DNA of 64,000 bases, taken from contig JADNRV010000012.1 of NCBI GenBank assembly GCA_015499995.1, positions 186,001 through 250,000 on the forward strand. Reading direction: 5' to 3'. This document shows positions 3,028-27,407 of the stretch, in pieces (position 1 is the first letter of the stretch; each line of letters starts with the position of its first letter). A program made the position numbers and the translations under genes. The notes beneath the pieces are model-generated. The model was not told where the DNA came from, searched no databases, and worked only from the letters and a program-made list of their open reading frames with translations. Source of the DNA: Flammula alnicola. Its lineage: Eukaryota; Basidiomycota; Agaricomycetes; Agaricales; Strophariaceae.

Positions 3028-4541
3028 TTATTTACCAGTAGCAGGACGAACGGGCTGGAGAGTAGGCCTCATATCGATATGCGCAACCGACGCTAGTAGG
3101 AAGCAGCTGGTGTCAGTGCCATCTCCCTGAATACGTGACGAAGCATTAGCTAAAACGTTAGACCAGGGGCGGGAAGCACCCACAATCATCGTAACAGGGA
3201 ATCCTGGGTCAAAGTCTACGAAACTCTCCAAATACTTGATTTGCTCATTGCTCAGAGAAAGTTCGAGAGCTTCGACGTTCGCGAGCAGATGCTCGACTTT
3301 ACGGCCTCCAATGATGGGGAAAACGTAGGCTGTCTTCTGCATGAGGTATGCGATGGCCACTATAAATAGTAGAAACGAGATGAGGAGCAACTCGGGAATG
3401 ACGGGTGATTGCAATGGTTGCTTGCCTGAAGTAATGCTCTTCGCTCCAATATCTGCCGCCACTTTCTCGAGGGCCTTACAAACCCTCTTTTGTTGGTCGT
3501 TACGTTCCCATTCAGGTTCAGTGAGCGTACGGCCTTTCTCTCCAGTTTTACGGCGCCTTTCTTCTTCTGCGTCAGTCCGAATCTTGCCTGCCGCGAGTAC
3601 GTTCCACGGACAAAGAGCCATGCCTGGCAATATGAAAAAACATTGAGCGAAGTTCCGCGAGAAATCTACTCGAAGCATACCTTCGACTCTGGCCATCGGA
3701 ATAATGTCGCGCTCGAATGAACGTTCCATTACATTCCAAGCTCCTTGGTATACGACGAATGGCGTCAACGCATGATCCCGCGCATACTGATTGGCTTTCG
3801 AAACCACCCATGCAGGTGTGTCGGAAACACCCTGCAAATTTTTATTTAAGTAACAGAGAAGCGAATATTATCGAGACGGCTTACAAGATACAAAACTTTG
3901 CCCTGTAAGATGAGTGGATGGAGGGACCTCATCACCTCCTCCACGCTCGTGTCCCAGTCCCACCAATGAAGATACAGGAGATCGATATAGGTCGTTCGGA
4001 GTTTCTTCAAAGAAGCTTCGACGGAGATATGCAACGACTTCGCATTGTTGCCGACGTATGAAATTTGCTGTTGGACCGATTTATTGCGGTTTTTGAAGTT
4101 CGTCGTATACTGGCACAGGCTTCAGCTTTTACATAGCTCAAGTCTCAAACGGAGAATGACGCACCTTCGTCGCAATGAACAACTGGTCCCTGATCCCTCG
4201 CGTCTCTGCCCACTCTCCAACGAACATCTCAGACGTCTCGTCCTGGCTAAAAAGTCACAATTCGAGAGCTTTAACGAGGAATATAGGACTGTACGTGATG
4301 AAAATACTCACTAGTTGTTTGCAGTGTCGATGAAGTTTCCGCCGTTCTCGTAGTAGGCATCTAGCAGTTTGAAGCTTGACTCTTTATCCATGCTACCCAT
4401 GCCCGCATCTTGCCATTTATCCCCAATACTCATCGCTCCGAGCGCCAAAGGTGAGACATGCACGCCAGCATTAGGAGAGAAGACGCGGTAGCGACCAAGG
4501 CCCGTCTTTGGGGGAGGAGGTGGACTCCAGAGAGGTGACAT
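3028..4541 (-). CDS. Aryl-alcohol dehydrogenase-type aldo-keto reductase, copy 2 (AAD2)
   Basis: Paralogue of AAD1 with the same role expected: NADP(H)-linked reduction of aromatic aldehydes. Seven exons give 386 aa: complement(3028-3126, 3184-3359, 3426-3623, 3681-3831, 3885-4109, 4165-4246, 4312-4541). The start [16 protein letters not shown] was chosen because it aligns with AAD1 and follows a TATA box; a further in-frame ATG 111 bp upstream is less likely. Catalytic Asp/Tyr (FIDTANNY), Lys (IATK) and His (YLHWWDWD) are present, as is PIIGGRK. Intron 5 (3360-3425) uses a GC donor (TTCAG|GCAAGC) where AAD1 and AAD3 have GT. No other donor keeps the frame. The last exon carries an insertion ([12 protein letters not shown]) relative to AAD1. 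It lies about 650 bp from AAD1 in the same orientation, so a tandem duplication is likely. Confidence 0.93.
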
Positions 4542-10668: not shown

Positions 10669-12172
10669 TCATGACCATCATTTCTTTGGGGATTCACTCT
10701 GGTGCGGGGTTGTACAATATTCATCAACTGCTCCGCGGAATCTCCCTTCCCCCCCATCATTCCAGTAAGGGATCTTTGTGCTATTTGCATCTGGGCATCC
10801 TCCAGGCTGGCCTCACCGTCGTCTCGAGCCCCTTCGACGCAGTACACGACGTCCCCAACGGATACAAGTGCATAGCCGTCGACACGGTCACGTGCAGATG
10901 CTGTCTCCTGCAATTTTTGGGGAGTCCAGGAAAGGAAGGTCCCCACGGCCATGTTGCTTTCACATGTTGCCCTGTAGAAACGTGATGACGTACGTCGCAC
11001 CAGAGTGAGAGTCGGCGATACTCGTTTCAATAATCCCCCAAAGTCTACTGACTCTGGTCTGGGGGCATCCACGCATTCCCTCGGTCAAGCCAAGCTCAGG
11101 GTTCCCGGAATGGGTACTTTTTAAGCGCTCCCGGCAGATAGTGACAGAAGCTAGACGCATCTGAAAAACGCCCCAACAAGTTGTGGTGTGGTGCACCTCG
11201 ACTTTAGAAGGAGAGTTGCGAACTTGTGGGGCGACGATTTCACCATGAGCATGCACATCGACTGCGGTGGATGTATTAGGGTTGGAGCATTCGTTCTCTG
11301 ATATGGGCTGATTATTGGGTGGCCAAGTGGGGTCCTTTTACCAAGGATTGTCGAACATTCGATTTCTGTCACTGTAGTTAAGCATGGTGTTAGCAAGTTC
11401 TGGAAGTTCTGGAAGTTGTGGTCTAATTCTTGTGTCACCGTTGTAGTCAACTGTGGAAGCTTTTCTCGGTCTCCTTGGAGGGTGTCGCCATTCATGCCGC
11501 ACCGATCCTCTAGTTATCGAAGCTGAACAGAGCTTGGCAATCGTGCTAAATGTATCCGGCACCGTTTACGCGGATCCTCGATCGTGCAAGCAGAATGGTG
11601 CTATTTTACATATCAAAAATACCAGAAACGATGCACTGTGTATGATCACTTTGCATAGCTGGATTGAAAAATACGGTTCTCCATATGTAGGCGATCGAGT
11701 GAAAAGTTTCGATCGTTGTGCATTTCTCACGTGCATTGATTGACGCCCGTGGGCCGTAGTAGTAGTAAGTAGATTACACGGCATGGTGAACGCCGGGGCC
11801 CGAGAGTATCAACAAATGGTGGACGCCGTTGGTTATTCTTCAAAGAAAACGATATATCTGATTCGTCACCGAGCCTCAGAAATACATCCATGCTCGCCCT
11901 TTATTCTGGTTCTGCCAACAAGGCACTGGAAGCGGTCAATTGATATTGATGTTCAAACTCCGAGCTGTCGTCCTTCCTCACGCGGCACGCCATGCAGTCA
12001 TGACATGGATGTACTATTAAAAGTCCAGAAAATCTACCTGACTGCGGCGAGTAAAGAGAAAAGGCTCGATGGGACTAATGAACGTGGAGTTCATATTTGT
12101 ATAATGTCATTAGCATAAAACTTACGTTTTCATTTTTTTCACTGCATACCCTCCCCCTTCTTTAGGACTGCC
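10669..12172. other. Shared divergent promoter region of the two desaturase genes
   Basis: About 1.5 kb separates the two start codons. It must contain both promoters. A 135-codon minus-strand frame at 10665-11072 has no recognisable domain and is rejected. CT-rich sequence lies just before the OLE1b ATG. No other feature is supported. Confidence 0.6.
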
Positions 12173-13971
12173 ATGGCGTCTCCAGTCCTGGCCCTCGTTG
12201 AGGATGTCTGTCCGGCACAGTTCCTACCATTGACACCACCTATATCCCCGAAATCGAAGCCCTTCACCATCGCCGCCTCCAAGAAGGCCACGTCGACGTC
12301 GACGCCAGCCCCTGAGCAACCCCACACCAACTACGTCGAACACACGCTCAGAACCGAGCAGCCTCTACCCCCACTCTCATGGTCCAACTTCCACACCGAG
12401 CTCAACTGGCTGAACGTCGCCATCATCTGCGTCATGCCCGTCCTCGGCCTCCTGGCCGCCTACTTCACCCCACTGCGCTGGGAAACCCTCGCTTTCGCCG
12501 TCTTTTACTATTTCGTCACAGGGATGGGGATCACCGCGGGGTACCACCGGCTCTGGGCACACCGGTCGTACAACGCGAGCCCCGTGCTGCAGTACTACCT
12601 CGCCATCACCGCCTCGGGCGCCGTGCAAGGCTCGATTAAGTGGTGGTGCAGGGGACATCGCGCGCACCATCGGTACACTGACACCGACTTGGACCCGTAC
12701 AATGCGCACAAGGGCTTCTTCTACTCCCACGTTGGCTGGATCATGCTCAAGCCCCGCCGCAGGCCCGGCGTCGCCGACGTCAGCGACCTGAGCAGCAGCG
12801 ATGTCGTCCGGTGGCAGCACAAGTGGTTCATCCCGCTGATCCTCATCGTGGGGTTCGCCGTACCGACTATCGTACCGTGGTACTTCTGGGGCGACGCGTG
12901 GGGCGGCTACGTATACGCCGGAGTCCTGAGGTTGTGCTTTGTACATCACGTGTGTTTTTCCCTCCTCATTCACACTGGTTTAAGTTATCCCCACTCTGCA
13001 AATCTATTCCTGACCTCCATTTTGCCTCTATTCTTTAATGGTCTTCAACATTCCTCGTCCCGCAGTCGACGTTCTGCGTCAACTCGCTCGCGCATTGGCT
13101 AGGCGAAACCCCGTTCGATGATAAACATACACCCCGCGATCATTTCGCGACCGCGCTTGTGACGATCGGCGAGGGTTACCATAATTTCCACCATCAGTTC
13201 CCCATGGACTACCGCAACGCCATCAAGTGGTATCAATATGACCCCACGAAGTGGTTCATCTGGGCCTGCCAGCAGATCGGACTTGCCAGCCATCTCAAGG
13301 CACGTTTGTGCCTTCGTGCGTGGGATTCGCGTGCTAACTGACACTGATATCATTGTTATTTTCTGCAGGTCTTCCCAGGGAACGAAATACGCAAAGGCCA
13401 GTTAACGATGGAGTTGAAGAAGTTGAAAGAAACACAAGAACGACTCGTGTGGCCTATAGATAGCAATGATCTGCGCGTTGTCAGCTGGGAAAGCTGTACG
13501 TTTATTTTTTTTTGGTCGACGAAAACTCCGACTCCCCATTTGTTAACCGAATTTCCTCTTCTTTCCAATAGTCCAAGAACAGTCTGAGACACGGTCCCTG
13601 ATCCTCGTTTCCGGATTTATCCATGATGTTTCGTCATTCCTCGACGAACATCCCGGCGGGAGGCATCTTCTCACGAAGCTGGTCGGCCAAGACGCGACGA
13701 CGGCGTTCTTTGGAGGGGTCTATGACCATTCAAACGCGGCTCACAACGTATGCTCTTTCTTGGTCCCCAACCCACTTTGTTGCTCACATTGTTTTGATTG
13801 TGATAGCTCCTCGCGATGAAGCGCGTCGGTGTCCTATATGGAGGCATGCCAACGTGTTTCGATGAATCCGCCGTTCCTCCCAGTCAACGTCTACAGATCG
13901 CAAAATACAGCGACATCAACTCTTGCGCTAGCAGTACCGCTTGCTCCGACGGCCGCGGCAGCCCCAGCTAA
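12173..13971 (+). CDS. OLE1: Acyl-CoA Delta-9 desaturase with cytochrome b5 domain (OLE1b)
   Basis: Paralogue of OLE1a with the same expected activity in the ER membrane. Five exons, 492 aa: 12173-12949, 13066-13299, 13369-13495, 13572-13747, 13807-13971. The His boxes HRLWAH, HRAHH and HNFHH, and the cytochrome b5 HPGG motif, are all intact. The N-terminus ([17 protein letters not shown]) and the last 35 residues differ most from OLE1a, while the catalytic core is nearly the same. Exons 2, 3 and 4 have identical lengths in both genes (234, 127, 176 bp). Intron 2 (13300-13368) has a GC donor (CTCAAG|GCACGT); using the nearest GT would shift the frame. The coding sequence is GC-rich at third positions, which suggests strong expression or recent selection. 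Divergent from OLE1a. Confidence 0.94.
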
Positions 13972-15212: not shown

Positions 15213-15669
15213 GAAAGGTCCTCTGTAAGGCTCTCGAGAAAGTGGCTGCGCAGGTAGGAGCTAAGCACATCACCTCAGGTAAGCCCACCGGAATAAATCG
15301 CCGCCATTTGAACTGACTTTGCGTCTAGTGGCAATTGCATACCTCATGCAGAAAACGACGTTTGTGTTTCCTATTATCGGAGGCCGGAAAGTCGAGCATC
15401 TGCTCGCTAATTTGGAGGCTCTGGAAATATCCTTGAGTGACGAACAAATCAATTACTTGGAGTGTCGTACCCTTCGAGCCAGGATTCCCGACTTGGATGA
15501 TTGTGAGTTCTTCGCGATACCGTCATATTTTATGTGCTTGCTTAAGTCCCTTCGCGTTTCAGGGAGATGGCACCCAGCCTGGCCGCTTCATTACGTCCAC
15601 CGCGCATATTGACACGAGGCCTATGCTCCAACCGATTCGTCCTACTAGTGGAAAAGAAACATCGTGAGG
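15212..15669 (+). pseudogene. 5'-truncated aldo-keto reductase (AAD) pseudogene
   Basis: Contains the end of exon 5 ([18 protein letters not shown]), intron 5, exon 6 ([23 protein letters not shown]) and exon 7 ([14 protein letters not shown], stop at 15667-15669) of an AAD1-like gene. Exons 1-4 are absent. In exon 6, AAD1 reads TTGGAAAGTGTCG but this copy has TTGGAGTGTCG, a 2-bp loss that shifts the frame. It lies in the right arm of the inverted repeat and starts exactly where the EasG-like relic ends. Confidence 0.9.
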
Positions 15670-16697: not shown

Positions 16698-18211
16698 ATG
16701 GCTGCGTTTCTTACCCCAGCTGCTCCGCCTAAGACCAACCTCGGTCGCTATCGTGTGTTGTCCTCCTTTTCTGGTGTCCATGTCTCGCCAATCCAACTTG
16801 GGGCAATGAACATCGGAGATAAATGGCATGAACTTGGCGTGGGCAGCATGAACAAGGAGTCGAGCTTCAAGCTCTTGGATGCCTACTTTGACAATGGAGG
16901 AAACTTCATCGACACTGCAAATATCTAGTGCGAACTCGAAGGTTCTTATGCGCATATCGACTACCAGCTAACACGACGCATTTTACAGCCAAGACGAAAC
17001 TTCCGAGGAGTTCATTGGAGAATGGGCAGAGAAAAGGGGAATCAGGGACCAACTTTTCGTCGCAACCAAAGTCTGTGGCCTTTTCTTTTATACTCTCGTA
17101 ACCTCAGACATTCTCAGTCCGGTATTAACATTGGATCTAGTTCACATCGAGCTTTAAGCTTCGTAATAATTCTGTCGAACAGAAAGTATTCTTTGTAGGA
17201 AACAGCACAAAGTCATTGCATATATCTGTCGAGGCGTCCCTGAAGAAGCTCCGAACGAGTTATATCGATCTCTTGTACCTTCACTGGTGGGACTGGGACA
17301 CCAGCATCGAAGAAGTCATGAAATCTCTCCATACGCTCATTTTACAAGGCAAAGTTTTATATCTCGTAAGTAATTTAACGACTCTATTTTGCCTCCGTTA
17401 TACAATTTTTGTAGGGAGTTTCGGACACGCCTGCATGGGTTGTTGCGAAGGCTAATCAGTATGCCCGTGATCATGCCTTGACACCCTTCGTCATATACCA
17501 AGGCGCGTGGAATGTCATGGAGCGCTCCTTTGAGCGTGAAATTATTCCGATGTGCAAGTCCGAAGGTAGGCTTCTATTTTGTTCGTGACGATGACCTCTC
17601 ACGTTTCCATCAGGCATGGCGCTTGCTCCTTGGAATGTGCTGGCAGGAGGCAAGATTCGAACCGACGAAGAGGAAGAGCAGCGTCGCCAAACTGGAGAGA
17701 AGGGGCGTACGCTTCTAGGCCCCGACTGGGAGCGCAATGATCAAGAAAAGGCGGTCTGCAAGGCCCTTGAGAAAGTGGCTGCCGAGGTTGGCGCCAAGCA
17801 CATCAATGCAGGTAGGCCCTGTGGATCTAATGCATCTATTGCCGTGCAATAATTCACTTCGATCATTGTCGATTCTAGTGGCAATCGCATACCTTATGCA
17901 CAAAACGCCCTATGTCTTCCCCATTATTGGAGGACGCAAAGTCGAGCATCTGCTTGCCAATATTGAGGCTCTCCAGGTTTCCCTGAACGACGAACAAATG
18001 AAATATTTGGAGAGCGTCGTACCCTTTGATCCAGGATTCCCCAATTGGCTGATTGTGGGTTCTTCACGTCACTGTCGCTTTGACGTCTTTACTGATATAG
18101 TTCTGGTCTTTTCAGGGCGATGGCACCGAGGTTGTTCGCTTGATGGGATCGACTGCAGCGATTGACCTGAGGCCCACCTTGCAGCCTGTGCGACATCACT
18201 CTGGAAAGTAA
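16698..18211 (+). CDS. Aryl-alcohol dehydrogenase-type aldo-keto reductase, copy 3 (AAD3)
   Basis: Third full-length paralogue, expected to be a cytosolic NADP(H)-dependent aryl-aldehyde/alcohol oxidoreductase. Seven exons, 385 aa: 16698-16927, 16989-17070, 17141-17365, 17415-17565, 17614-17811, 17879-18054, 18116-18211. Every internal exon has the same length as in AAD1 and AAD2, and all splice sites are GT-AG. Catalytic residues are seen in FIDTANIY (Asp, Tyr), FVATK (Lys) and YLHWWDWD (His); PIIGGRK is conserved. Exon 3 is the most diverged part ([18 protein letters not shown] against YTTNFKNRN in AAD2). Plus-strand orientation opposes AAD1/AAD2 and faces away from the desaturase pair. Intact and probably expressed. 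Confidence 0.93.
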
Positions 18212-19472
18212 GCTTCATGACGGAGAAGACAAGAAGATTATGGGTTCTGCATAATTTGATTTGCTGAACATGATCTTCAGACTCCCCAGTAAATCTAGGT
18301 TCTAATAGCATTGCACACAAGCATTCGACTGTGTTGTTCTCCTTAAGCACTCGAAGTCGATATCTGATGCATGTTTAGAGGAATGCGCAATCTGCCAGGA
18401 ATCTGGTGCTCGTGACTTTAGATTCATATCTCTTATTCTTATTCCATTTTCCTTATTCTAATACTCGTGATATCTTGATTCCTCAGTTCGCCCATTTTCT
18501 TGAGGCTAATGAGCAAGGACTCCGAGTTGGAGAGGACTCGGAGTGGTCGGAACCCTGTTCCCGGAGCTCGACGACTCCGCCCGGTGGCAAGTTCTGGAAC
18601 GTGAAAGTACACACTTGGTAGAGTTGCTACGTATCGGTCGTTCATCATTGCGTTTTATTCTTTCCAGGGCTGATGTACACCAGTTCCACTGGCAACAGGT
18701 AAATGGTCTAGAGCCAACGCAATATCGTAACTGGTACCCCAATTTTCCGGTACCCTTTCTTCGTAAGGAGGTGAATCCAATAAAGGCTGAATATCATCTA
18801 GGAGCTCAACGATGCAAAACCTGTCGGCTTTGCAAGGCGGACTTGGCTGTAACCATATGAGTAATCTTTAAACATTCAACCCTCCCCAAGGTCAGAAAAT
18901 TAAATCGATTGACTGATTAATTCAAACTGTTTAAATGTGCGACACCACTGTGAAGGGGTAGGAAGTACCCTCCAGCAGTGCTACTTGCCTGTTTAATCGA
19001 GATTTAATTGCTCATTAATCCACAGTTACAATCAGCTCAAGATGCAATATTAATGAGGCTCAAATGTTTAATTAAGATCCATATGGATTTTTGACTTGGG
19101 CTCCGAGCTGTCCGAATTTGCCACCATGTGACCCTGTTTGACGACCCTCTCCCTTTTCTGGAAATGTTCCTCGATCGTGATGTGTGGCGCAAGGCGCTTT
19201 TCTTCCTCTCTCCTCCATCCACCGCCTCGTAGGTCTGAATAAAATAAGTATTAAAATTCTAACTCTCGTATATTTGCCTTACATGATGCAAAGCAGTAAC
19301 GGACAATATTCTGTGGTTTCATTCAATCAATATTGCAAAAAAAGATATTCGCATTGCTACGACATCGACGACACGGCTGAGTCCAATATTTCAAGTAAAA
19401 AAGTTCTTCGCGTTTGGTGCCCTTCCAGCTAGCACCGGCAGAATAGGAACCCGGGTGACCAGATGGCAAGCA
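18212..19472. other. Intergenic region, with a possible small inverted-repeat element at 18863-19080
   Basis: No gene is supported. About 18863-19080 is rich in TTAA motifs and is bounded by ATCTTTAAACATT on the left and its inverted near-match (AATGTTTAATTAAGAT) on the right. This could be a roughly 215 bp non-autonomous element, but the ends are imperfect and I could not define a target duplication. Confidence 0.4.
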
Positions 19473-20376
19473 TCAGTTCATGTCGCGGAAAGCGCTGGAG
19501 TGGAAGACATTGGTGCTCCACTGAGCGACCCAGCGTCCGTCACCGTAGTTCTAGGGGCATCAAATTTTAGTAATTGAGTACTCAACCTGAACAACTGGAA
19601 AATTCTCTCACCAAGTTAGCAGTGCACTTGTAAGAATCACCGTCACAAACAAGCTTGGTGACAGGTACCGGGGCAACTTGAGCACCCTAAGAAGCGAAAT
19701 GATTCAGAAAGAGTTTTGAAAATGTCGCAAGTGTCGATAAGCTTACCTCAGACGCGAAGATGCCTTGGTGGAAAACGTTGGTGCTCCACTGAGCTACCCA
19801 TCTACCATCGCCGAAGTCCTACAGACAAATTGTCATTAATTGATCATCCACCTTCAAGATCTGAAAATTCCTCACTAAGTTGGCAGTGCATTTGTAGGTG
19901 TCGCCATCGCAGACGAGCTTCGTGACAGGAACTGGTGCCATCGCCATTGCACTCTGTTTGTAAAGGTAAGGAAATGACTGTCGGTCACGAAGATTCGAGG
20001 AGTACTTGGACAAATGGAAACGTACAATAGCTGCATCGTGGTCGGGCGCACCGAAGAGACTAGTATGGAAAACGGCGGTTCCCCACTGAGCGACCCACCT
20101 GCCATCGCCATAATTCTAGTAATTTGATTAGTAGGAATTTAACGCGTCCAGAGTATACTAACTTACCAGAGACGCAGTGCATTTGTAGCTATCACCGTCG
20201 CATACAAGCTTGGTGACAGGGACAGGCGCAACCTGGGCCTAAAGGGAAGAATTCGAGTGAGCCATTGGGTGCACACAGGCCACACGGTGACCTACTGCTT
20301 CAGAGGAACCGAACGGAACGGCTACGACAGCTTGGACAGCAGCGAGGAGGGAGATAAACGCAGTGGTGAAGTTCAT
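19473..20376 (-). CDS. Secreted triple-module repeat protein 1, family not recognised
   Basis: Predicted secreted protein of 181 aa. Seven exons: complement(19473-19550, 19612-19686, 19747-19818, 19876-19953, 20026-20115, 20167-20238, 20296-20376). Exon 1 encodes a signal peptide (MNFTTAFISLLAAVQAVVA, cleavage probably before VPFG). The other six exons alternate two module types. Module A is about 25 aa, PVPVTKLVCDGDSYKCTANL. Module B is 24-30 aa, with FGDGRWVAQWSTNVFH. Three A-B pairs make the mature protein, and every intron is phase 0. Each A module has a C-x6-C pair, probably one disulfide per repeat. No known domain is recognised, and no catalytic motif is visible. A role in binding something at the cell surface or outside the cell is a guess. 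A near-identical architecture occurs in the neighbour at 22.4 kb. Confidence 0.88.
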
Positions 20377-20454
20377 GTTGAGAGGCAGTTGTAACGCTTG
20401 AGATTGATGATTGTAAAAGAGGCTGAGTGAAATTGAAGCTGAAAAGGCGTCCCT

Positions 20455-20461
20455 TCTTATA
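20455..20461 (-). promoter_or_regulatory. TATA box of secreted repeat protein 1
   Basis: TATAAGA on the minus strand, 79-85 bp before the ATG; the paralogue has one at a similar distance. Confidence 0.5.
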
Positions 20462-22408
20462 GGTTTTCTGTTTGCCACTAAACAATCGAATACCCTTGCA
20501 CGTTCATGAGCAGCATAGGTATTGTTCACGCGCTCACAGCACAGAACGTCCCTTAATGTACTTTTATGTCCTCTAATCTCGGCGAAGCAGCGTTAGATTC
20601 ATTTTCGGTAGAACGACCTGCGGAGCTCCAGAGTCCCAGCCAATAACATCCCAGTGAATTTGGAGCAATCGAACAGCAAATATTCTACATTCCAACTAGC
20701 ATGAATTACACGAAGCCGAGTAGTGTCATGTATGGGCAATGATTAATGACCCGTGATGCCGATGGCCCGGGAGTGGTGCGAATTGAAAGGGTCATGGACA
20801 GGAATCTCGAAGAAATCAAATTCCAATCCCAAAATTGAATGGCATCCGGGAGAAACCAGCTCCGAAATCTCGAAAGCTTTTCGAATGCTCGCATTTTTTC
20901 GTCTTCATCCGTGTATAGAACTGCCAAAAAATACCAGGGGAAAACGCTCGACTAAAGTTTTGGATCCTTTCAAGGTTGTATTGAGAACACTGGGATGCAT
21001 GAGTCGCCTTGTAAGCAGGATTAGCTTCAGGTCTATTGGCATTGTATCAGGGGGGAACAATCGGAAACATAACTTCCATTATTTCATATGAGTGAGGGCG
21101 ACGAACAATCTAGAAAGCTGTGATAATTCCCATTACCACTGCGCTACCCTCCTTTGATTTGGTATGCGGGCATCAGTCCACGGCGAAGTCGGGGCGCGAA
21201 TGCATCGATTCTAAATCCACATAACAATAGCTATCGAAAATGAGTTCAAACAAAAAGCGCGCTTTCCCGTTAAAACAACTTCTTGTGAAGATCAGTGCAG
21301 TGGCATAGTACAATGACCATGAGTCATTCCTGCAGGCTGGACTCCATCTAGGTTCTAAGGAACTCAGGCCTGATTCTCTGAGGAGCTTTTATATACGTAT
21401 TTGCCATTTTCTAACTTTCAATGGTTTCTCGTCTTAGTACAGAAACAAACGTTCGTGAAAGAGTGTACCCGGCAAGATTCAATATTCAGGCCGTTCACCC
21501 TCGCTTGCAATTGGCAGTGGGGGAGGTGATCCAAAAATATCTTAGCGTGATCGGCAGCGCGGTCTGCCCATCGTCTAATTAAAATCTGGGGAAAGCAGCC
21601 ATAAGTTGCCCGGGAAGACTTTACATTGTACAATGTCAGGTACACCCTCAAGAAGTCGTCTGCAGAGTGAATCAGTCAGGGTAGCACATTTAGTACAAAG
21701 CAAATACTGATGTTCATCAACAGTCCCCATAGTACTTGGAATCTTAATACTGTACCCCGCAGACGCTGCTTTCATGACTCGGTTCTTCGAACTAGTGACC
21801 TGATTACACCCCATACCTCACATGACTATTAGAAGTGCCCGACCCGGAATTAAATCAGGACTGGAGGAACAAGAGCATCCAAAATTTGTCATGTGTGATT
21901 CCCCGATTATCAAGTCCGTATCGATGGTGGTCGTTCTATCCGCGACATAACCCCAAAAGATCATGATTCTTGGGTAGTTCTCCGCATTTCGGAACTCATT
22001 TTGCGTGCGATGACGATAATTAAGCATCCCCTTTAAACGTCAGACATTCATTTAGTTAAATACTAAACGACGTCGCTAAAAGCGTTGAACAGAATAGGTT
22101 TCAGGAATCGACTGACACAGCAGAGGAAATGATGTTGTATTTGCTATTTCGCGTCCAATTAGCATCCGTTGTTAGTGAAGCCAACTCTCAAGATATAATT
22201 AACTTACTTCTATATACTGATTGACCAAGGTTGAAAGTGGCAGTGAAGGTTGTCATTCAATAAATTTCAATCAGTAATTGCAGGAGGCTACTCGAATACA
22301 TGACTTCATCGGACAAATTTTTACGTTGTGAAAACTCTGAAATTCTCAACCAATTTCCTTGCCTTGCCTCGCGTCCGAGCCAGGGGGTCGGGACTTGAAT
22401 GGCGAGTC
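20462..22408. other. Spacer between the two secreted-repeat genes
   Basis: About 1.9 kb with only short overlapping frames on both strands (such as 20753-21091 plus, 21418-21814 minus). None resembles a known protein or the neighbouring repeat family. Probably intergenic. Confidence 0.6.
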
Positions 22409-23309
22409 TCAGTTCTGGTCGAGGAAGGCGCCGGTGTGGAAGACAGAGGTACTCCACTGAGCAACCCAGCGACCGTCACCGAAATTCTACACAAGAAGGT
22501 TAGAAATTAATTTAGCAGCTTGAGGGATTGCACATTGTTCTTACCAAGTTAGCAGTGCACTTGAAAGAGTCGCCATCACAAGCGAGGTTGGTAACTGGGA
22601 CCGGAGCCATGGACCCAGTGGCCTAAAAGGGTAAAATGTTTTCTAGAATCAGACAGAATAGGGCCTCACGGAATTGTCTAAGGCTTACCCCAGATGCGAA
22701 CATGCCTTGGTGGAAAACGTTGGTGCTCCACTGGGCAACCCAGCGACCGTCACCGAAGTCCTATAGACCGAGATTAATTAAGCTGGGATCATGATATCTA
22801 AGTGATTGTATGCATTTACCAAGTTGGCCGTGCACAAAAAGCTATCGCCGTCACAGACGAGTTTGGTGACGGGGACCGGTGCCATGGCCATCTCGCTCTG
22901 TAAAAAAAAATTAGCGTAGGTAGATATTGAGCAAAATGACGAGACCTCGACGCGTACCATGGCTTTATGGTCAGGCTGTCCAAAGAGACCAGTGTGGAAT
23001 ACGGCAGTACCCCACTGGGCGACCCACCTACCATCGCCAAAGTCCTGAAAAGGTGGTTAATTCAAATTTAATGCATTGAAATTAGATCAAACTTGCATAC
23101 CAAGTTTCCAGTGCATTTGAAGGTATCACCGTCGCAAACGAGCTTGGTGACTGGAACAGGAGCAAGATCGTTCTAAAATGTACTACATGAATATGGAGAT
23201 AGGAATGGAGGATGCGTGGACCTACCACAGGTCCTGAAGACCCAAATGGAATGGCCACGACAGATTGGGCAGCGGCGAGAAGAGAAATAAAACCGGCGGT
23301 GAATTTCAT
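22409..23309 (-). CDS. Secreted triple-module repeat protein 2, paralogue of the gene at 19.5 kb
   Basis: Predicted secreted protein, 182 aa, seven exons: complement(22409-22486, 22545-22622, 22689-22760, 22820-22897, 22958-23044, 23101-23172, 23226-23309). Signal peptide MKFTAGFISLLAAAQSVVA, then three A-B module pairs as in its paralogue; all introns are phase 0. Each A module has two Cys six residues apart (VCDGDTFKC, VCDGDSFLC, ACDGDSFKC); each B module has GDGRWVAQW. Corresponding repeats of the two genes resemble each other more than repeats within one gene: repeat 1 ends LFGQPDHKAM against LFGAPDHDAAI, and repeat 2 ends VFHQGMFASG against VFHQGIFASE. The triplication therefore came before the gene duplication. 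Function unknown. Confidence 0.88.
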
Positions 23310-23397: not shown

Positions 23398-23407
23398 CTA
23401 TTTTATA
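23398..23407 (-). promoter_or_regulatory. TATA box of secreted repeat protein 2
   Basis: TATAAAATAG on the minus strand, 89-98 bp before the ATG. Confidence 0.55.
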
Positions 23408-23777: not shown

Positions 23778-23793
23778 TAGGGACTAACACGGA
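23778..23793 (+). repeat. hAT left terminal inverted repeat
   Basis: TAGGGACTAACACGGA, identical to the reverse complement of the right end. Confidence 0.95.
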
Positions 23794-24093
23794 TATATCC
23801 GGGACCGATCCGTAACCGAACCGCGGATTTTACCATATACGGTTCGGATACGGTTCGGATCGGTATGATCCGGATCGACCCGCGCTATTTTTGCACGCTG
23901 TGAGCCACCGCAATGTAGCTCGGTCAATTCTTATCCGTTTTGCTCAAGTAAGGGTGCGTTAGAGAGCTATCAAGGGGGAGAGTTCATTCATGCATTAATT
24001 ACAAACATTGGTATCCACGTCTTTCAGAAAATGGAAAATATAACACTATAGTACAAATTTATTACATATTCTTTCAATTTCATGTGTCTCTGT

Positions 24094-27000
24094 TCATTCA
24101 CCCATGCGTGACTCCACCATTGCTGCAATATCCGAATACTTGGGAAATATAGGGGTTTTAGCCCAAGAACCCAGTGCCACACGTGCCTTGAATGTTTGTG
24201 AGCTCATATTATGTTGCATATGATTCACTTGACGACGACCAGTTGAGAATGCACGTTCAGCATCGACAGAAGTTGCTGTAAAGAAGGAAAAATTAGTAGA
24301 GCTTCTATATAATGAGGAAAGGCAAACCTGGTGCTGAGCAAAATGCCTGCCCCATTCTTGAAAGGCCAGGTCGTGTATTTCTCATTTGATACCAATATTT
24401 CATATATCCACCTGCATCTGTTATGGCGTCCGATGAAGCTACGCTTTCTGCCAGATATGCTTGAATAGAATCAGCAGGATATTTGCTTGAACCTGAGGAA
24501 GCAGAAGAGGGAGCAGCCCATTTTGACTTTTCCTATGATCCGAAAGTAAGAAAAAATCCAAGTTTATGACTTAGAAAATACATTACCTTGGTATTCTTCT
24601 TTGCAACTGGAATCTGTGACTGTGCAGGTGCATAAGTCTTCGACCATCGGTTAATTACCATCTTTTTGATTTCCTTTAACTTTTCCGATGAAACATAGTC
24701 TTTAAGGAACTGCAGCTTCCGATCTGGACACATAACTGGTTTATATATCAGCTATTAAATCCAAAAAATAGGAAATTGAAAAAGCACCAATAGATATAAC
24801 ATAGATCTCACAATCCCATGTCAAGTCCATATATTTCTCGATGAGCAAAACTCCAGCGTGAGCTGCAATCCGAATTACAGCAGGAGTTTCACCGGAAGTG
24901 GAGGATAAGTCAGAGTCGTCATCGGAGGCATCGTCATCATTCTGGGGCTGATCAAGAACAACTGCCTTTAAGCTATCTTGAAGGTGGAATAACATGGGAA
25001 GAGCGTCAACAATAAGAGGGACCTCTGCCTGGGAGAAGAGTAGTGTTACATCTTTAAAAAGCTATTGAAAAATCAGACACAGTTACGTGAATAAAAAAAA
25101 GATATCAACACCTTTAACACCTCTTGAACATCATCTGCCAATTCCCATTGCTCTTCTGAGAGGCGGTATGCCTGCAACTTGTTCCCAGAAACACCTGTCA
25201 GAGCCTCAATAACATCCCTAAAATGCAAGTGTGCAGCAAGACAGTCAAAGTCTGAGTTCCATCGAGTTGGAACACGGCGATCGAGAGCACGCTTGGTTGA
25301 TGAAAGCTCAGGATCCTGGTCGATAAGTTCCTGGAATTTCTCATTCAGTGGCGATGAGTCGTGAACACGGCGTGCAAGTCCAGAAACCTAGATAATATTT
25401 TAGAACAGATATTTAGTAATATTGAATGATGACTGTACCGCCGGAAAGAGTTTAAGTGCCATCTGTTTTTCTGCTTCAGACATCACCACACCTTGATCTT
25501 TCATCTCGCGTATTGCGACATCCCGAAGAGACTTGACGACTGCATCATCATGAGCTACTTGACCATCATCTTCTTGGGTCTCCTCTGCCTCGATTGACGC
25601 TTGTTCAGTGGCTGCAGAATCCTCCTCACCCTCATCTGATCCATCCCCAGGATCCACAACCAGCTCTACCTCTTCGTTGCGATGGTCTGATGCAATCGTG
25701 ATAGATTTCTTTACTTTCGGTTTCTTAAAGAAGAAAGAAATAAAGATCTAAATAGAAACAATTAGCTAATTGCTCAACGGATATTTTTGCAGTTACCTTT
25801 GCAACAAGATTGATTATATGAGCCAAGCATCGCAGGCGTGCATCCATACCCCAGAATGTGGGAATATAGTCAGACAGCAATTCTGCAAGCTTGTCGCAAT
25901 TACTGGCATTGTCCATACATAGACCAAGTAGCTATATAAATGCAGACATTATTATCTATTTTGAAAGATTATATTTATTTTACTTACCTGTTGATCAAGA
26001 CCAAACCGTTTCAAACATTCGGATGTAACTGTGGCCAGATACCGCCCGTCATGTTTTTTAGTCAAGCTATCAAAATAGAAGGAACTGAGAAATAGAGAAT
26101 ATATATCACAGATTTGCCACACACCGAATGAATTCCAGAATTGCACGATGAATTACTCCCTGATCAAACCAAACAACCACAAGGCCAAGATACGAAGAAA
26201 CAAGCGGAGAAGTCCACCCATCGAGAACCAGGTGAATTGTACTGTTTAGTTGCTACATTTAACGTATAAGCACTTTCTAAATCTTATAATGCAAATTAAC
26301 ATACCAAAAAATAGTTCTTTACTGCAATGGAGGCCTGTTCATAGATGTAAAGAAGATCTCGTTGAACAGTCATTGGACTCGGAAGCTTGGTCCCAGGTCG
26401 TAGCATTTCGACCTCAAGTTTATAGTCTTCGTCAAGGACAGAGTTGATCGGACGTGCATTTTTAGCGCAACGAAGGGCAATAAGAGCACGATGAGCTGCC
26501 TCAGAGTAAGAAATAGCTGCCGGCGCTGGCTTTACACGTTCACGGCCTTGCTTTCTCAAGCAAGTATCAACATCCTTCTGCAAATTGCTTGTCCCATCGC
26601 CCGATTTCCCCCGGAGGCGAGTCCGGACAGATGTGTGATTCTGTGGATGTGTTTTGCAAGTGAATATCAAAGTCATAGAAAGAGGCTCTTGGGCCTCAGT
26701 AAAATTCCGTCGCAGTGTGACGTCATAGTGATCGTAGACTTCAGATCTCCACGACATTCGTGCAGCATCTTAAAGAATTTATTTATTTATCATTACTTGT
26801 TAATTTTGTTGAATATACTCACCAACAATCTCTTCATCACTCATGTCCCAGACCTCGAGATCAGTGAGACGGTTGATTGTAGGAGCAGCTTGCCTCTGGC
26901 GACGCTTGATGGGTGATATAAGAACAGGAGGAGCAAAAACATCCCCAGCAGCAGCAGTGTCAGTATCTTCATCACTTGAGTCTGGAGATACTGGTGGAAA

Positions 27001-27174
27001 TTGCTCCCCTGGCGTCTCAAAACCACGCAGACCTGCCCGCCCTCGTGGCCTTGGAGGGGGAGTTACAGGTGGATCCGGTGGTGCAGGAGCTGCAGGGGCA
27101 GCAGCAACAGCCTTGCTGCCCTTGCGGGGCTTGGGAGCAGCCTTGGGAGCCTTGGGCGCGGCCTTGGGAGGCAT
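24094..27174 (-). CDS. hAT transposase with BED-type zinc finger and C-terminal dimerisation domain
   Basis: Cut-and-paste transposase of the Agaricomycete hAT type. Start MPPKAAPKAPKAAPKP at 27174 is followed by a Pro/Ala-rich basic tail. A BED-like zinc finger comes next (WRSEVYDHYDV, FTCKTHPQNH). The catalytic core includes IHLVLDGWTSP (first acidic residue) and CMDNASNCDKL, then an acidic linker (DDASDDDSDLSS). The C-terminal dimerisation motif is TSVDAERAFSTGRRQV, with stop at 24094-24096. Exon ends checked by frame include 26757-26311 region to 26247 side (intron after YFL), the FIR|LTKKHDG junction, LDQQ|LLGLCMDN, and VLK before 25110. I found no internal stop or frameshift in the joined exons, but not every intron was resolved. 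It may be autonomous and recently active. Confidence 0.85.
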
Positions 27175-27391
27175 AACAAGAAGGCGGGGAGGGAAGAAAC
27201 CGTTGGGATGCTCGCAGCGGTTAGTTAACGCGGCGAAAACCACGCTATCCTTGCTTGACGTCGGAGATTGAAAATATATCTATATATGGCTATTTATATC
27301 CGTGGTATCCACGGTTCGCTATAAATAGTCACGGGTACCGAAAATAGTATCCGGATATAAACGGTCACGGGTAGCAACCGGATCTCGTCGG

Positions 27392-27407
27392 TCCGTGTTA
27401 GTCCCTA
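27392..27407 (-). repeat. hAT right terminal inverted repeat
   Basis: Reverse complement reads TAGGGACTAACACGGA, matching the left end. Confidence 0.95.

Follow-up and report, generated by a model that had tools for sequence, protein, structure and literature searches.

A 64,000-nucleotide stretch of the Flammula alnicola genome (Strophariaceae; contig JADNRV010000012.1, positions 186,001 to 250,000; hereafter the window) carries two tandem genes on its minus strand, about 2 kb apart and both within 19473–23309, that very probably encode lectin precursors of the PhoSL type. In both genes, the first exon encodes an N terminus that, by eye, resembles a signal peptide, and is followed by exons in the order A, B, A, B, A, B (Table 1). 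The A exons end in CDGDxxxCTxxL, the B exons start with [ND][YF]GDGRWVAQW, and an A half and a B half together form a unit of 40 residues, giving three units per precursor. All 12 chosen introns of the pair are GT-AG, in phase 0 and 51–72 bases long. The best database match reached an E-value of 3e-109, beyond chance, and the gene 2 product is identical to P0002, the hypothetical protein BDZ97DRAFT_1902163 of F. alnicola; the whole gene 2 splice model has therefore been annotated independently. A preliminary description of the window had proposed two genes over this span, each with a signal peptide and three A-B units, one module per exon, phase-0 introns and the motifs CDGDxxxC and GDGRWVAQW. 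Our seven-exon models agree with it on every one of these points, and the products do appear secreted, Cys-containing and exon-modular.

Table 1. Coordinates of the two candidate lectin precursor genes and associated features in the window (SP, signal-peptide exon; A and B, half-unit exons).
Feature	Position	Strand	Basis
Gene 1, very probable PhoSL-type lectin precursor, 181 aa, 7 exons	20376..19473	minus	splice model and PhoSL match
Gene 1 exons SP, A1, B1	20376-20296, 20238-20167, 20115-20026	minus	splice model
Gene 1 exons A2, B2, A3, B3 with stop	19953-19876, 19818-19747, 19686-19612, 19550-19473	minus	splice model
Gene 2, very probable PhoSL-type lectin precursor, 182 aa, 7 exons	23309..22409	minus	splice model and identical public protein
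Gene 2 exons 1-4	23309-23226, 23172-23101, 23044-22958, 22897-22820	minus	splice model
Gene 2 exons 5-7, the last with stop	22760-22689, 22622-22545, 22486-22409	minus	splice model
Gene 1 unit 1, APVPV to end of exon B1 with linker	20026..20229; β2/β3 intron 20166-20116	minus	
Gene 1 unit 2, APVPV to end of exon B2 with linker	19747..19938; β2/β3 intron 19875-19819	minus	
Gene 1 unit 3, APVPV to stop with tail	19473..19674; β2/β3 intron 19611-19551	minus	
TATA-like box TATAAG, 85 nt upstream of the gene 1 ATG	20456..20461	minus	function inferred
TATA-like box TATAAAA, 98 nt upstream of the gene 2 ATG	23401..23407	minus	function inferred

Each A+B pair corresponds to one unit of PhoSL, a lectin of Pholiota squarrosa that is specific for core α1,6-fucose. 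PhoSL (PDB 6eke) was matched by phmmer with an E-value of 6e-23, and the window units depart from it at 3 to 8 of 40 residues. The unit pattern APVPVTxLxCDGDxYKCTAxLxFGDGRWVAQWxxxVFH is present in all six window units and in 21/21 units of the genome copies described below. PhoSL (PDB 6eke, 6fx1, 5xzk and 6a86; a 180-aa three-repeat gene product) and the window genes are alike in unit sequence and length, cysteines, binding pocket, Trp core and the number of repeats per precursor. Both genes are thus further members of a known family, and the gene 2 product was already public under a name that gave no hint of it. The preliminary description had called the family unrecognised and had stated that a strong match to a characterised family would count against this; the PhoSL match and the fold superposition below are such a match. 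Its guess of a carbohydrate-binding protein fares better, given the probable lectin assignment.

Names and domain matches in this family mislead. Relatives are deposited as "hypothetical protein" or "Ig-like domain-containing", and Pfam comparisons return AP2 and PADR1. We rejected the AP2 domain (PF00847), which scored 30.3 and 29.9 bits, below the gathering cut-off of 33.3. The PADR1 zinc ribbon (PF08063) scored 26.0 against a cut-off of 25.1 for the gene 1 product, with a best stretch of 16 residues, and 21.5, below the cut-off, for the gene 2 product; we took it for a false positive because each unit carries just two cysteines.

Much is already published on these lectins. According to the available parts of PMC5958098, Yamasaki et al. 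solved the PhoSL trimer as a threefold β-prism with swapped strands and a Trp32 triad at its axis. It has three fucose pockets, each built from residues of two units, and the fucose sits between two chains in contact with A1, V3, G12, D13, L21, Y23, W28 and V36. The cloned gene encodes 180 aa with three repeats, for which a pseudotrimer with cut linkers was proposed; PhoSL purified from the mushroom has 40 residues, and its peptide sequence resembles a mixture of the three repeats. The lectin serves to detect core fucosylation in cancer studies. The available parts of PMC5039751 (Vainauskas et al.) describe SL2-1, a three-repeat Streptomyces protein that binds core α1,6-fucose and, as a recombinant protein, works uncut and elutes as a 17 kDa monomer. 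They also mention relatives with three repeats in Pholiota nameko and Hypholoma sublateritium, and the Rhizopus stolonifer lectin (RSL), by its description a PhoSL-like core-fucose lectin peptide whose gene was not known to that source. Three-repeat precursors and the threefold β-prism are therefore not new here. The main text of a P. nameko transcriptome paper (PMC13412918) contains neither "lectin" nor "fucose", and the name "pdi259", borne by relative P0019, was not found in the literature among the matches listed.

The predicted unit has four strands and superposes on PhoSL chains, with template modelling (TM) scores by PhoSL length of 0.88–0.98 over ten PhoSL rows in Foldseek, which is in line with the β fold guessed at in the preliminary description. 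The fucose-pocket residues A1, V3, G12, D13, L21, Y/F23, W28 and V36 are kept in 21/21 units of the seven genome copies, apart from a V3A exchange in the C745 copy (V3 in 20/21) and Y/F exchange at position 23; Cys10, Cys17 and Trp32 are present in 21/21. Given this conservation of pocket and core, the Flammula proteins are expected to match PhoSL in fold, valency and ligand. A β-trefoil had been our first guess from 3 × ~46 residues, and lectins of that fold (actinohivin, ricin B type) likewise have three repeats in one small chain, a comparison found in the available parts of PMC5039751. The window units match PhoSL β-prism chains; we dropped the trefoil when none was named among the fold matches listed (50 rows in one search), though nothing is excluded thereby.

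Relatives in the databases vary at position 15. Residues were counted in the 45 of 67 database proteins with exactly three units under a strict pattern (within P0001–P0051), and the structure alignment of relatives took in 43 of the 67. Gly replaces the aromatic residue at position 15 (CDGDTGxC) in 26/135 units, distributed as 17 third, 7 second and 2 first units, and suggests altered binding sites in these proteins.

A genome search returned 42 exon-level matches on five contigs, which assemble into seven complete three-unit genes: two on the contig of the window (C24), two on C92, and one each on C19, C807 and C745. Over 4.7 kb, C92 shares 97.8% identity with the window; its flanks are related too, at 90.3% and 86.4%, and it is probably an allele of the window locus; C19 and C807 share 99.98% identity over 6 kb. 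Some of the seven copies are probably alleles or assembly duplicates, and the distinct genes number three or four, according to whether C19 and C745 carry alleles. The product of the C745 copy and the F. alnicola protein P0001 are the same except at 1 of 180 residues. One more site, on C1, was found by DNA pattern and was not among the results of the protein search of the genome.

Introns were enumerated in frame with the donor at most 75 bases from the core and a length of at least 35 bases. In the chosen models of the seven copies, 42/42 introns are in phase 0. Phase 0 is the sole option for 36 of the 42, and the other six, all first B-to-A introns, also permit phase 1 or 2. A single candidate exists for 21/21 A-to-B and 8/14 B-to-A introns; the seven SP-to-A introns had 4 or 12 candidates, all in phase 0, and were picked by donor and acceptor consensus.

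Every unit is split by an intron after β2. In the model, residue 52 is the last of β2 in unit 1, and an intron of gene 2 lies directly after it. Twelve seemingly unspliced metagenomic open reading frames (P0056–P0067), seen as proteins alone, hold 14 A cores, and Val follows the final Leu in 14/14, as a phase-0 GT donor would give. Six of these cores read through to a B core, and the last of the 18–22 inserted residues is Gln, the residue expected from a CAG acceptor. Seven further A cores lack an adjoining B core and are followed by a residue other than Val (P0008, P0019 twice, P0027, P0031, P0047 and P0049); we interpret them as annotation faults or changed B halves and do not count them as introns. 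In P0008, the third of its units carries an insert of 11 residues. By eye, P0056 additionally reads through an intron in a linker, at roughly the window site, and the P0057 linker has no intron. From these protein sequences, the within-unit intron seems widespread and the linker introns less constant. No mention of a within-unit intron in PhoSL-type genes was found among the open-licence papers listed or in the available parts of PMC5958098 and PMC5039751, and the word "intron" is absent from PMC5039751.

The number of units does not rise above three in the relatives compared. Of these 67 database proteins, 47 contain three A cores, 8 contain two, 12 contain one and none contains more than three; relatives up to 1.75 times the query length were admitted, and those with one or two cores include truncated and unspliced reading frames. 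The suggestion in the preliminary description that phase-0 exons favour copy-number change thus finds no counterpart in the family. A closed threefold prism would explain the fixed count of three.

The family also extends into bacteria. We scanned the genomes of 84,980 bacterial and archaeal species by pattern and obtained 161 matching stretches, at least 21 of them confirmed relatives, a lower bound in that the scan needed short patterns. All 21 lie in the actinobacteria Streptomyces, Actinacidiphila, Saccharothrix or Actinosynnema. Like the window genes, SL2-1 (Streptomyces rapamycinicus) and other three-unit lectins of actinobacteria have ~40-residue units in triplicate, a signal peptide and the same core residues; unlike them, they are intronless, and unit positions are not conserved between species. 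Just one or two residues follow the 38-residue core of unit 3 in 16/16 three-unit loci. In the intronless bacterial gene L049 (Streptomyces sp. NBS 14/10), no difference separates units 2 and 3 over 38 residues, a sign that a unit was copied recently.

We compared units by position using trees of 38 columns, in which 53 of 82 inner branches (first tree) and 28 of 63 (fungal-bacterial tree) stayed open. The first tree held 19 fungal-like proteins, gene 1 and 9 of the 26 other three-unit proteins. Bacterial comparisons left out 5 of the 21 loci (L051, L060–L063), with fewer than three units found in each; the fungal-bacterial tree further left out 5 of the 16 other loci and 8 of the 19 fungal-like proteins, a group that includes metagenome proteins placed there by sequence. 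With 11 fungal and 11 bacterial proteins, joint clades of first, second and third units were rejected by the approximately unbiased (AU) test (p-AU 3.7e-7, 2.9e-4 and 2.4e-8). Fungal units as a single clade were not rejected (p 0.19); the best tree lacks that clade (2 changes), which appears in just 4% of bootstrap trees. Position clades were not or weakly rejected in fungi alone (0.076, 0.22 and 0.036) and were rejected in bacteria alone (7.5e-4, 3.2e-4 and 1.6e-6). Between the two groups, no order of units was clearly preferred; because position clades are rejected in bacteria alone too, this result cannot decide between independent triplication and homogenisation. The A-to-B introns within one window gene are 53–67% identical to each other and the linker introns 47–57%, compared with 48% for shuffled sequence. 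The pattern fits fungal units that kept their positions and bacterial units that were homogenised or reshuffled.

One account would tie this history to the intron. If the within-unit intron were ancestral in the agaric branch and predated triplication, it would break DNA identity between units and shield them from homogenisation; fungal units would then keep their pseudotrimer positions, intronless actinobacterial units would be reshuffled or overwritten, and the two kingdoms may have triplicated independently. We regard this as quite unlikely. Units within a protein have a similar mean identity in the two groups, 0.82–0.83 for the Strophariaceae-like proteins and 0.79–0.85 for the bacterial ones, and the Strophariaceae-like value does not fall below same-position identity between proteins (0.77–0.82); both observations weigh against such a shield and against kept fungal positions.

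For the mature lectins, we propose that the chain would be secreted, as its signal-peptide-like N terminus suggests, and that the three units would fold into a single-chain pseudotrimer with one Cys10–Cys17 disulfide per unit, closing into a β-prism round the Trp32 triad as in the PhoSL and SL2-1 work. The linkers would be clipped to give 40-residue peptides starting at Ala1, a step we hold to be rather probable, and the trivalent lectin would then bind core-fucosylated N-glycans. Its most likely role would be to recognise animal-type glycoproteins as non-self, for instance to defend the fungus against fungivores; this last step is the weakest, and we give a defence role an even chance. Dibasic KR stands directly before unit 1 in 3/45 three-unit database proteins (P0021, P0022 and P0031), and many Streptomyces relatives have a signal-peptidase-like AxA motif there; cleavage at either would leave unit 1 with Ala1, a fucose contact, as a free N-terminal residue. 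In the Flammula chains, a short spacer, SSEAAQV or SSGPVNDL, takes the place of KR or AxA.

Several points weigh against this proposal. No dibasic pair precedes the Flammula units. The best Foldseek E-value was 2.8e-3, with none at or below 0.001, for targets 38–43 residues long; the whole-chain predicted TM-score was 0.65, the PhoSL targets being single short chains and not the threefold prism assembly, and one of five models scored 52 against 70–74 for the others. In addition, the available part of a review (PMC6272156) proposes that effectors directed against animals stay inside the cell and that those secreted target microbes; a signal peptide combined with an anti-fungivore role is hard to square with this. 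The same proposal favours a lectin that serves the fungus itself, in cell-wall or developmental binding. We consider such use rather unlikely: the family ligand, core α1,6-fucose, is described as an animal-type modification in parts of PMC5958098 and PMC5039751, and fucose in fungi is reported by few studies, mostly on Mucoromycotina, as far as the available part of PMC10481521 goes.

It is also possible, if not what we expect, that the working form is the intact three-unit chain, as in SL2-1, and that 40-residue peptides are an extraction product. The activity of recombinant SL2-1 as an uncut 17 kDa monomer (PMC5039751, in part) and the lack of a dibasic site common to the linkers speak for this, and the 40-residue PhoSL purified from the mushroom, with its mixed repeat sequence (PMC5958098, in part), speaks for clipping. 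A secreted adhesion or effector protein of unknown family would share the signal-peptide-like N terminus, cysteines and exon modules; because sequence and fold both match a characterised lectin strongly and the binding residues are kept, an unknown family is extremely improbable, which leaves room for a lectin with an adhesive role.

Other elements surround the gene pair. A 3.6 kb hAT-type DNA transposon (window 23778–27407), absent from the C92 counterpart, has 16-base matching terminal inverted repeats starting TAGGGACTAACACGG, an 8-base target-site duplication GATGGGAG and a weak Dimer_Tnp_hAT match (E 0.0026), below the Pfam cut-off. Directly downstream of gene 1 lies a 246-base insertion (18847–19092), which resembles a miniature inverted-repeat transposable element (MITE) and is flanked by the 7-base direct repeat GACTTGG; it is absent from the C92 counterpart, and the C19, C807 and C745 alignments break at the same points. 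Related aldo-keto reductase gene stretches, presumably aryl-alcohol-dehydrogenase-like, lie beside the lectin pair at 1024–2368, 3173–4523, 15214–15515 and 16700–18200, one of them a seemingly decayed fragment; the Pfam comparison covered a piece of the 16700–18200 gene. By eye, a δ-9 fatty-acid desaturase-like gene occupies 12170–13970.

Together, the window supplies naturally occurring PhoSL variants along with the structures of their genes. Through the intron layout, it becomes possible to test how a single-chain pseudotrimer arose from a unit of 40 residues.
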